Both the position numbers and the translations under genes were made by a program. 64,000 nucleotides of DNA from the NCBI GenBank assembly GCA_013824085.1, contig PNNF01000001.1, positions 62,001-126,000 of the forward strand, given 5' to 3'. The notes beneath the pieces are model-generated. The model ran no database searches. It worked only from the letters and a program-made list of their open reading frames with translations, and was not told the origin of the DNA. This DNA comes from Chlorobiaceae bacterium. GTDB lineage: Bacteria > Bacteroidota > Ignavibacteria > Ignavibacteriales > Ignavibacteriaceae. This document shows positions 28,162-30,563 of this stretch, piece by piece. Position 1 is the stretch's first letter, and each line of letters opens with the position of its first letter.

Positions 28162-29415
28162 TTATATTTTCCATTCGAAATCCTCGAACCATCGATTCAT
28201 TTTATTTTGGTCCAAGTTAATTATGTCATCTCTGATTACGTCAGGCGGCATCGGAAATAGATCATTGAGCTTATCGATTATTGCTTCTCTTTGGATTCCT
28301 TCAGACTTTTGAATCACTAACCATAAAGTAAATGCATCCGAAGGTTTTGCAATTTCTAAAACTCTCTCTATTTCATTCTCAAATTTACCACTTAAATCAA
28401 AATTCATAAGATATTTTTTAAATTCAAGTTCTGAATCTTTGTGAAAAGGAGTTTGCATTCTTCCATCAAAAAATATTCTTGTTGTGTAATTGTTAGGTAA
28501 GACAATGCTTTTTTGATTTTGTTTAATGTTTATTAAGCCGCTAAAATTTTCGATCAATATTGCAGTATCATTTTCTGTTGTAAGTCTGAATGAAGCTTGA
28601 TTTCCAAACACACTTCCGAAATTAGTTTTGACTACAAAATTTGATTCCCAATTCCAAATCTTTGCTCCAAGTTTTCCATATTCCAAATAAATAATATTGC
28701 TGTCCGCCCTTGTCTTTAGAACACGAACTGCAGAGTTATCATAAATTGAAAAATCCATTCCAGAATAAAAATTAACATCCACTGCTGAATTTTCTGTTGT
28801 TGTTATCAAATCTTTCGCATAAATATTTGGAGTTGAAACTATCTTCCCATTGACAAACTTTATTCCACTTGACGAAATAATTTTCCAAGGTGAAGTATTG
28901 AGGAATACAGAATTGTAATACCAAAAACTGATTGCTAATATTATTGGAATAATAAGGAGTAAATATTTTGAGCTAAATTTTTTTCGGAAGGTATTCCATT
29001 TTTTTTCTTTTTCAATTTCAATATTTTTTTGAACAACTTTATTTATTAATCCATATTTTTGTTGCTTACTCTTTTGGGGAGATAATTTAGAGGAACTGTC
29101 AATTTTAGAAAGATCTTTTTTCTCAGATACAAAACTATTATTCTTAGTCTCATTCTTAAGAGCTGCGCTACTTGCTTCAACATCAATTTCCTTCAGAACA
29201 TAGTTTAATATTACCGAAGCTTCAATTTCTAGTAATGGTTTTGTTTGTAAGTAATTTTTTAAGGTTTGAAGTTTTTGATAAAATAACCTACAGCTATCAC
29301 AATTTTTAAAATGCTCATACAACAAAACATTTTCTGCTTCATTCAGTTCTTTATCATAACTCCTATTTGAAAGATGGTGATACCTAAAACATTTATCTTT
29401 TAAATTCTTCTGCAA
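28162..29415 (-). CDS. Membrane anti-sigma-like protein: zinc-finger N-terminus, one TM helix, FecR-like C-terminus
   Basis: The 417-residue protein opens with a zinc-binding anti-sigma motif (HFKNCDSC near residue 35, the HxxxCxxC pattern). A charged linker and one membrane helix (YLLLIIPIILAISFWYY near residue 155) follow. The C-terminal half is a FecR-like periplasmic beta domain (NIYAKDLITT, SAVDVNFYSG, then GSVFGNQASFRLTTEND). This places a sigma-binding domain inside and a sensing domain outside. The start is a TTG overlapping the sigma gene by 23 bases; no nearby ATG keeps the zinc motif. It probably holds the adjacent ECF sigma factor inactive until a signal arrives; the signal is unknown. 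Confidence 0.82.
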   Translation of the reverse strand: MQKNLKDKCFRYHHLSNRSYDKELNEAENVLLYEHFKNCDSCRLFYQKLQTLKNYLQTKPLLEIEASVILNYVLKEIDVEASSAALKNETKNNSFVSEKKDLSKIDSSSKLSPQKSKQQKYGLINKVVQKNIEIEKEKKWNTFRKKFSSKYLLLIIPIILAISFWYYNSVFLNTSPWKIISSSGIKFVNGKIVSTPNIYAKDLITTTENSAVDVNFYSGMDFSIYDNSAVRVLKTRADSNIIYLEYGKLGAKIWNWESNFVVKTNFGSVFGNQASFRLTTENDTAILIENFSGLINIKQNQKSIVLPNNYTTRIFFDGRMQTPFHKDSELEFKKYLMNFDLSGKFENEIERVLEIAKPSDAFTLWLVIQKSEGIQREAIIDKLNDLFPMPPDVIRDDIINLDQNKMNRWFEDFEWKI

Positions 29416-29911
29416 GCTTTGACCTTACGTTATAAATAGTATTTCTAATTTCATCAACATCCTGTGTTGCAAATAAATCAGCGATTTCGCTATATGAAAA
29501 TCCTTCTATGTCGTGCATTACGAAAAGAATTCTTTCTCTGTTGGAGAGTGAAAATAAATTTTTATCAAAAAATGGAAGTTTATTTTTGTTGACTGAAATA
29601 ATATTTGAATCGATTTCATTTAAGAGTGAACTCAAATTTGCAATAACTTCATAAATAGCCGCACTGTGCAACCAGTCAGAAAATGTTAAATCAGTTCGAT
29701 ATTTTTTTTTATCATTCCATGCATTCAAATAAATTTTATGCACTAAATTTTTTGCAGTTTCTTCATTCGCAAAAAAACGGAGACACAATGTGTAAATGTC
29801 TTTTACGTTCAATTCACAAAGTTGAATGAATGCTCTTATATTTCCTTGTCGAAAAGAATCTACAAGATTGGCAATATATCTGCTTTCGCGTCCTATTTTT
29901 TTTACTCTAAT
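29393..29911 (-). CDS. ECF-type sigma factor, apparently starting at a non-canonical codon
   Basis: Region 4 is clear (LSNRERILFVMHDIEGFSYSEIADLF, residues about 125-150). The first standard start, a TTG at 29812, would cut region 2 in half. Translation upstream in the same frame continues a typical region 2: NLVDSFRQGNIRAFIQL, then CELNVKDIYTLCLRFF and ANEETAKNLVHKIYLNAW. From that TTG back to the in-frame stop at 29918-29920 there is no ATG, GTG or TTG. The best candidate is ATT at 29911-29909, sharing one base with the stop of the preceding gene and giving 172 residues; ATA at 29896 is an alternative. No Shine-Dalgarno is visible. A sequencing error in the A8 run (29895-29902) would not help, because the other frames also stop there. 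Confidence 0.72.
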   Translation of the reverse strand: MRVKKIGRESRYIANLVDSFRQGNIRAFIQLCELNVKDIYTLCLRFFANEETAKNLVHKIYLNAWNDKKKYRTDLTFSDWLHSAAIYEVIANLSSLLNEIDSNIISVNKNKLPFFDKNLFSLSNRERILFVMHDIEGFSYSEIADLFATQDVDEIRNTIYNVRSKLAEEFKR

Positions 29912-30308
29912 TTCTGATTAATATATTAAATCCACTGCTACTTACAGTTGCAGTAACTCTCACAACATTTGAATCGTTTTGACCAATTTCTATGCCCCTT
30001 GCGTCAAGACTCACATGATTTTCAGTAACAAAATAATCGATAGTAAATCTGTCAGAATTTTTTAGACTCACTGGAGGCGACCATCCCAAATAATTTCTTC
30101 CTCCTCCACCAGCAGAGCTTGAAGTGATAAAATATTCTTGAGCACGCTTAGAAGCATAAACCAAAGATTTGACCAACAAATCACGATTAGAATTTTCAAT
30201 ATGTTTTGTATAAAATAGAAGTCCTGACCAAATCACGACACCAAAAATAATGCTACCAAGAGCAATAAAAATTATTTGATGTCGTTTCAACTTTTCCTCG
30301 ATTTTCAC
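29907..30308 (-). CDS. Small single-TM protein at the head of the sigma operon
   Basis: I do not recognise the family. The 133 residues contain one N-terminal membrane helix (IIFIALGSIIFGVVIWSGLLF, residues about 13-33), a Ser/Gly-rich stretch (SSSAGGGGRNY) and a beta-rich C-terminal part ending RVTATVSSSGFNILIRN, so most of the protein is probably extracytoplasmic. The overall shape is like a minor pilin but lacks a recognisable prepilin peptidase site. The start is GTG inside ATGTGA; the in-frame codon two triplets upstream is a stop, so no longer form is possible. It is followed directly by the sigma gene and could contribute to signal sensing. Confidence 0.75.
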   Translation of the reverse strand: MKIEEKLKRHQIIFIALGSIIFGVVIWSGLLFYTKHIENSNRDLLVKSLVYASKRAQEYFITSSSAGGGGRNYLGWSPPVSLKNSDRFTIDYFVTENHVSLDARGIEIGQNDSNVVRVTATVSSSGFNILIRN

Positions 30309-30563
30309 ATTAGTTACTATTTATTTACAAAATGATATTTTTTTAATTACTTAATTTAAATAAATAATTTTTCAAGTTCATGAATTATAATTATTTTTGC
30401 ATATCCTTTTGGAACACAATATGAAAATTGATATCAATAAATCTTACACGAAAAAATCTTATCGAAGTTATTTCGTCTCATCATTTGAGAATGTTTTTTA
30501 AATTTCCAACTCCACAACTACTTACCAATTTTATTTTTTTATTTTTCGTAAAAGGAGTTTAGA

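Follow-up and report, generated by a model that had tools for sequence, protein, structure and literature searches.

The minus strand of the sequence analysed here, a 64-kb window spanning positions 62001-126000 of contig PNNF01000001.1 (C1) in a draft genome of 2.65 Mb and 75 contigs, carries in order a gene for a small pilin-like membrane protein, an ECF sigma gene and a zf-HC2/FecR anti-sigma gene (Table 1). Their frames are free of stops over 127, 167 and 417 codons, respectively. None of the three begins with ATG, as an earlier sequence-only reading of this DNA had stated, and within the set the sigma gene alone is without both a standard start codon (ATG, GTG or TTG) and a Shine-Dalgarno (SD) site. 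A search of this draft genome for the exact anti-SD pattern of 16S rRNA gave no match, and SD use was therefore assessed by enrichment: SD sites were scored at 36% of 121 clean ATG starts versus 9% inside genes. We treat the three genes as one operon, a tentative assignment that belongs to the explanation developed below.

Table 1. Features of the sigma/anti-sigma locus, in window coordinates.
Feature	Coordinates	Strand	Remarks
GTG of the sequence-only reading, less likely start of the membrane gene	30306..30308	-	no SD; six codons beyond the homologous register
Shine-Dalgarno-like GAGGA before TTG 30290	30295..30299	-	
Small membrane gene, predicted pilin-like fold	29907..30290	-	TTG start 30290, TAG stop 29909-29907
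ATT of the sequence-only reading, proposed sigma start	29909..29911	-	position -11; shares one base with the upstream TAG stop
A8 run ending in the A of ATA (seven A before the codon)	29896..29903	-	A-rich, no SD site
ATA, proposed sigma start	29894..29896	-	-6 relative to the conserved Tyr; 10 nt past the upstream stop
ECF sigma gene, read from ATA 29896	29393..29896	-	167 codons + stop; from ORF, domain and homologue comparison
TTG, first standard codon of the sigma frame (codon 36)	29810..29812	-	rejected as start
Shine-Dalgarno-like TAAGG before TTG 29415	29423..29427	-	
Anti-sigma gene: zf-HC2-like N-terminal part, hydrophobic stretch, FecR-like part	28162..29415	-	TTG start 29415
FecR-like stretch of the anti-sigma protein	28537..28809	-	weak alone, E 0.0023, below cut-off

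For the membrane gene, TTG 30290 is the most likely start. The sequence-only reading held that it must begin at the GTG upstream, a view we do not share, given that the TTG has an SD site and stands in the homologous register: read from it, the protein gives a gap-free N-terminal alignment with eight homologues read from ATG, whose starts we picked ourselves. No Pfam model matched this protein. Its structural model (pLDDT 80.6, pTM 0.62) predicts a long N-terminal helix on a small antiparallel sheet of four strands, the layout of the type IV pilin fold; the 16 best rows of a VIA-align comparison are all pilins or pseudopilins (top Z 9.4, 2.1 A over 80 residues), and a Foldseek search with the model gave no match at E under 0.001. 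Prepilin peptidase sites are defined by Gly(-1) and Glu(+5). The homologue alignment reads MGSQQLLLI-like without Glu(+5) and the window protein begins MKRHQ; because this site is missing, we call the protein pilin-like rather than a type IV pilin. A different kind of frame lies upstream of sigma in L004, L007, L009 and L142, which we take to resemble a STAS-type anti-sigma antagonist; in L006 such a frame is present in addition to the pilin-like gene.

The anti-sigma gene can be assigned mainly from its homologues. An alignment of the family matches zf-HC2 in 8 of 9 members and FecR in 6 of 9 at E 0.01, and on this basis the window protein is placed among zf-HC2/FecR anti-sigma factors; alone, it matches only FecR, weakly, retains the HxxxCxxC motif and hits the anti-sigma model NF052368 at E 0.00049, below cut-off. 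The first standard codon of its frame is the TTG that had been named as its start, and the SD-like site in front of it agrees with that choice.

The sigma protein matches PF08281 (region 4) at 27.5 bits, above the cut-off of 25.7; no Pfam region 2 model matched it, and TIGR02937 scored 41.8 bits, slightly below its cut-off of 42.9. The lone window sequence is divergent, reaching only 20-25 bits against SigW, sigma-H (6in7) and RpoE. A profile from five homologues matches SigW and others across regions 2 and 4 (E down to 1.2e-17), and the protein has the two regions and the approximate size (about 170-200 aa) of an ECF sigma factor. Seven sigma-like genes of the window genome were inspected, and the other ones have a standard start in the expected range. 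A single scan of viral contigs with the window protein found no relative.

From stop to stop, the sigma frame (29917..29393) spans 174 codons, and no ATG, GTG or TTG precedes the TTG at codon 36. Initiation there would cost residues 1-35 of the open frame. Residues from 17 or 18 on align with the start of the solved ECF sigma factors sigma-H, SigW and RpoE, and part of residues 1-35 also aligns with the N-termini of homologues. We rejected this TTG because region 2 begins well upstream of it in the aligned homologues and because no SD site precedes it. The frame scan and the alignments uphold the sequence-only reading on two points, namely that a standard codon is absent before a TTG that would truncate region 2, and that a convincing region 2 lies upstream of that TTG.

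To locate the start by position, we obtained 94 sigma frames from 98 loci of the clade and kept 78 distinct ones, the window included. Each search contributed its best-scoring loci, not every genome, and the window genome is the sole representative of its genus among the comparison genomes. Positions were counted from a conserved Tyr, residue 14 of the window sigma frame. In 71 of the 78, a standard start is found no more than 25 codons upstream of this Tyr; the seven frames without one are the window, five loci of genus g4 (L032, L033, L034, L045 and L050) and the distant L072. The start falls at -10 to -4 in 68 of the 71, the remaining three being distant rows at -19 or -21, and in family f1 it is at -6 in 17 of the 22 relatives that have a standard start (ATG 5, GTG 6, TTG 6). 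ATA is the sole ATN or NTG codon at -10 to -4 in the window frame. DNA of 33% GC is rich in near-cognate codons, so an ATA among seven codons is unsurprising, and the argument for it is one of position and exclusion, not of rarity. In 27 of 27 homologues the sigma start follows the upstream stop by 0-57 nt, compared with 10 nt for ATA. When the first residues of sigma-H (6in7), SigW and RpoE are extrapolated onto the frame, they correspond to residues 9, 11 and 6, and ATA is residue 8. Judged by these comparisons, a near-cognate start is very probable for the sigma gene, and ATA fits that role better than the ATT favoured by the sequence-only reading.

The g4 loci show a related arrangement. 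CTG stands at -6 in four of the six g4 genomes kept, preceded at 5-7 nt by an SD site; the -6 position of the g4 near-cognate codons is our own assignment, and these codons were excluded from the evidence for the -10 to -4 range. L050 (G048:C29) has CTT at the homologous position, an SD site before it and ATT on both sides.

Near-cognate starts appear to be used elsewhere in this clade. Of 262 long ORFs in 346 kb of the window genome, six have their first standard start at least 30 codons into the frame. Besides this sigma gene they comprise infC, trmH, genes for a release factor and a radical-SAM protein, and one frame that has no Pfam match. The ORF baseline is crude and admits three start codons only (ATG 215, TTG 31, GTG 14, none 2 of 262), and it puts the sigma start at an internal TTG. 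Among 30 infC loci (L244, at G000:C1:137589-138131, and 29 others), 27, with that of the window genome among them, show no standard codon from the in-frame stop up to the conserved N-terminal motif; L249 has a TTG, and L242 and L243 have a standard codon a few codons in. We read the infC start as mostly ATC (ATC, ATT or ATA) after an SD site, and it is because infC mostly has no standard codon, and is read in this way, that we consider near-cognate starts to be in use in the clade. The SpoU/TrmH methylase gene of the window genome (G000:C2:38953-39552; L172:18953-19552) has no standard start, and an ATC after GAGG would fit. A release-factor gene with PCRF and RF-1 domains (G000:C2:30250-31290) has no early start codon, which the programmed frameshift of prfB would lead one to expect. 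A different ECF sigma gene of g4 is also without a standard start, with one case each of ATT (L207, G030:C27) and ATC (L211, G048:C14); genes of this type were found in only 2 of 80 family genomes at E 1e-30.

How might such a start be used? Our best explanation, which we offer tentatively, is that sigma translation begins at AUA 29896, is coupled to that of the membrane gene and yields less sigma than anti-sigma. Because no SD site precedes ATA, we propose a dependence on upstream ribosomes (re-initiation), in which those finishing the membrane gene would probably feed the sigma start, helped by the A-rich leader. IF3 discriminates against near-cognate starts; as AUA is a poor start of this kind, sigma would be made well below anti-sigma, whose TTG has its own SD site and could provide an excess. 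The surplus anti-sigma would then hold sigma until a signal releases it. What the sequences show is that a standard start is absent, where the start lies, and that sigma starts in the family are weak compared with those of the neighbours; AUA use, coupling, the IF3 effect, the stoichiometry and the signal are inferred. In Staphylococcus aureus reporters, AUA starts give about 10% of the output of AUG, and as much as 30% in the case of ccpN in rich medium (PMC13009471). The GTC start of Streptomyces sigR keeps SigR below RsrA, and replacing it by ATG, GTG or TTG makes SigR exceed RsrA (PMC5472188).

The family data bear on whether a weak start is peculiar to the sigma gene. Sigma starts in the 78 homologues are ATG in 36, TTG in 25 and GTG in 10, with no standard start in seven (CTG in four, all from g4). 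Its neighbours start with ATG in 26 of 28 (membrane gene) and 47 of 51 cases (anti-sigma gene; fourteen of the anti-sigma starts were entered by hand). When the operons with both starts readable are paired, non-ATG starts are found in 14 of 28 sigma genes versus 2 of 28 membrane genes (discordant 12:0, p 0.0005) and in 22 of 51 sigma genes versus 4 of 51 anti-sigma genes (discordant 20:2, p 1.2e-4). Three non-ATG starts together occur only in the window and L150, out of 27 operons. A weak start is therefore a habit of the sigma gene, and three non-ATG starts per operon are not. The sequence-only reading had envisaged a whole operon of weak starts that keeps a sigma factor at a very low level: all three starts are indeed non-ATG here, but such a design is unsupported because the neighbours mostly use ATG and, in the window, TTG with SD sites.

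Other ECF genes of the clade also differ from this family, with ATG in range in 47 of 60 compared with 37 of 78 sigma homologues (p 2e-4). All 60 controls were kept in this count, including five that have no standard start in range: L182 and L212 look misregistered, L178 has TTG at -1, and L207 and L211 have the ATT and ATC described above. Where several codons lay in range the rule took ATG, and it therefore counts against a weak-start reading. Four of the 98 loci were lost, namely L042, which was unread, and the ATG-bearing L039 and L056/L134 (one sequence); the ATG of the lost rows speaks against the weak-start reading, and with the two ATG rows restored, ATG is in range in 39 of 80 versus 47 of 60 (p 4e-4) and is the start in 38 of 80. 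The paired tests and the tree exclude these restored rows. Five distant rows (L051, L068 and L070-L072) are counted within the 78 and excluded from the tree and the neutral test. Weak starts are thus frequent in the family, and ATA is seen in the window only. Because the window sigma gene sits on a long branch (1.44) and its nearest tree rows use ATG, we regard ATA as a private change of the window.

Ten loci of family f1 (L018, L027, L035, L036, L037, L040, L044, L046, L047 and L048) have a sigma gene that continues into a frame of 526-536 aa, and the C-termini of L018 and L027 resemble the anti-sigma protein, so that these look like sigma-anti-sigma fusions.

Unlike its neighbours, the sigma gene is not kept at AUG. 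This firm contrast has two possible origins, and the sigma codon counts fit drift as well as they fit selection for weakness. Under drift, sigma would be needed in few copies, selection for AUG would be absent and weak starts would be tolerated without any regulatory role. The counts over the 67 of 73 tree rows that have a standard start (ATG 33, TTG 24, GTG 10) agree with a neutral choice at 34% GC (p 0.24, or 0.15 with the lost ATG rows restored), and both neighbour genes are far from the neutral expectation (p below 1e-6). A housekeeping enzyme of the same genomes, trmH, behaves likewise, with GTG 12, ATG 8, TTG 8 and none 2 when the starts of 30 loci are read by position, and Belinky et al. 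can be cited in support. The long sigma-anti-sigma frames of family f1 (about 485-580 aa) also mostly have weak starts, although two fused chains cannot be balanced. Both trmH and these frames favour drift or a general low-expression setting. Drift does less well with genus g37, where 11 of 12 homologues keep TTG despite an average fourfold-site agreement of 0.42, and with the CTG and SD site of four g4 genomes. Nor does the tree fit readily: the ATG/non-ATG labels require at least 16 changes, below every one of 1000 shuffles (mean 24.3, lowest 18), a comparison that ignores relatedness. We consider drift rather unlikely, if a serious contender.

Weak starts might plausibly keep sigma low. A broader version would hold that in many lineages of Ignavibacteriales this ECF sigma factor is throttled at translation, by weak start codons shared across whole or nearly whole genera (TTG in g37; GTG and TTG in g26 and g20; CTG and TTG, perhaps CUU, in g4; AUA in the window) that would be sensitive to IF3, fed by re-initiation where the pilin-like gene is present, and set to make less sigma than anti-sigma. 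We regard this generalization as speculative and, on balance, doubtful.

Initiation could instead occur at ATT 29911, coupled to the membrane gene through the overlap ATTAG with its stop. A stop/start overlap is a classical arrangement for translational coupling. One is also reported for rsrA, and AUU is a known weak start in infC of Escherichia coli (PMC5472188). However, -11 lies outside the range of nearly all homologues, 0 of 27 homologues overlap the upstream stop in this way, and no SD site precedes ATT. The sequence-only reading's choice of this codon as the best start thus did not hold, and we judge it improbable.

A single wrong or strain-variable base would also suffice, if the organism has ATG at 29896; the draft state of the genome and the ATG of the nearest tree rows are compatible with this. 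The other two operon genes are likewise without ATG, and g4 relatives independently have no standard start, which makes such an error quite improbable. An indel in the A8 run was considered as well and set aside: by eye, the stretch from the upstream stop to the Tyr has no ATG, GTG or TTG in any of its frames. It is more improbable still that the operon is decaying and its sigma gene no longer translated. The long branch, the three non-ATG starts and a genome smaller than most relatives searched would fit decay, but all three frames are open, regions 2 and 4 of sigma and the HxxxCxxC of anti-sigma are kept, and SD sites stand before both neighbours. We reject a frameshift fusion of membrane protein and sigma, which would need no sigma start and to which the 11-nt overlap of the two open frames in the window might point, as barely credible, because the frame relation is unconserved (10, 9 and 8 of 27 homologues) and all 27 have a separate standard start.

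A start at AUA with low sigma output therefore remains our preferred, tentative reading. Our search of the open-access literature returned no account of this sigma family, its AUA/CUG starts or the contrast with its neighbours, and nothing on ECF sigma factors in Ignavibacteria. The passage on noncanonical starts in an Enterococcus Grad-seq study concerns small ORFs, and that in a Sinorhizobium transcription-start study concerns leaderless mRNAs. A gene caller limited to ATG, GTG and TTG would overlook this sigma factor and its CTG relatives or call them too short. Within the clade, one gene shows a natural series of start codons beside two neighbours mostly kept at ATG, and such a series allows one to test whether start-codon choice holds sigma below anti-sigma, as shown for SigR.

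SigW, sigma-H (6in7) and RpoE share the layout of regions 2 and 4 with the window sigma protein. Each is encoded in an operon with a membrane anti-sigma factor. The window locus differs from them in its start codon and sequence and in the pilin-like gene that precedes sigma. Near-cognate starts lower translation in infC, ccpN, citZ and cvfC1 of S. aureus (AUU, AUA or AUC), where AUA works; unlike the window sigma gene, infC, ccpN and cvfC1 have extended SD sites, and the product of infC probably regulates its own gene. The closest parallel is Streptomyces sigR-rsrA, from which the principle of a weak sigma start holding sigma below anti-sigma is already known; there the GTC start is repressed by IF3. 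In both loci an ECF sigma gene that has no standard start is followed directly by the gene for a zinc-binding-type anti-sigma factor, which has an SD site of its own, and the expected outcome in both is excess anti-sigma. The window locus differs in belonging to another phylum and in its divergent sigma protein, and it is known from sequence, whereas sigR has been studied experimentally. The sigR start is nearly fixed (GTC in 32 of 34 species, GTT in two) behind a long SD site (PMC5472188); here it would be AUA, with ATG, TTG, GTG or CTG in relatives, a translated gene lies directly upstream, and a strong SD site is absent before ATA and present before the CTG of four g4 relatives. The anti-sigma protein also differs from RsrA in its hydrophobic stretch and FecR-like part. 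Because no SD site precedes ATA, we would say that this sigma gene may work like sigR and do not file it as the same element. If the broader version for Ignavibacteriales, which we doubt, were correct, a switch of the SigR type would have evolved a second time, independently, and its natural start codons would form a graded series.
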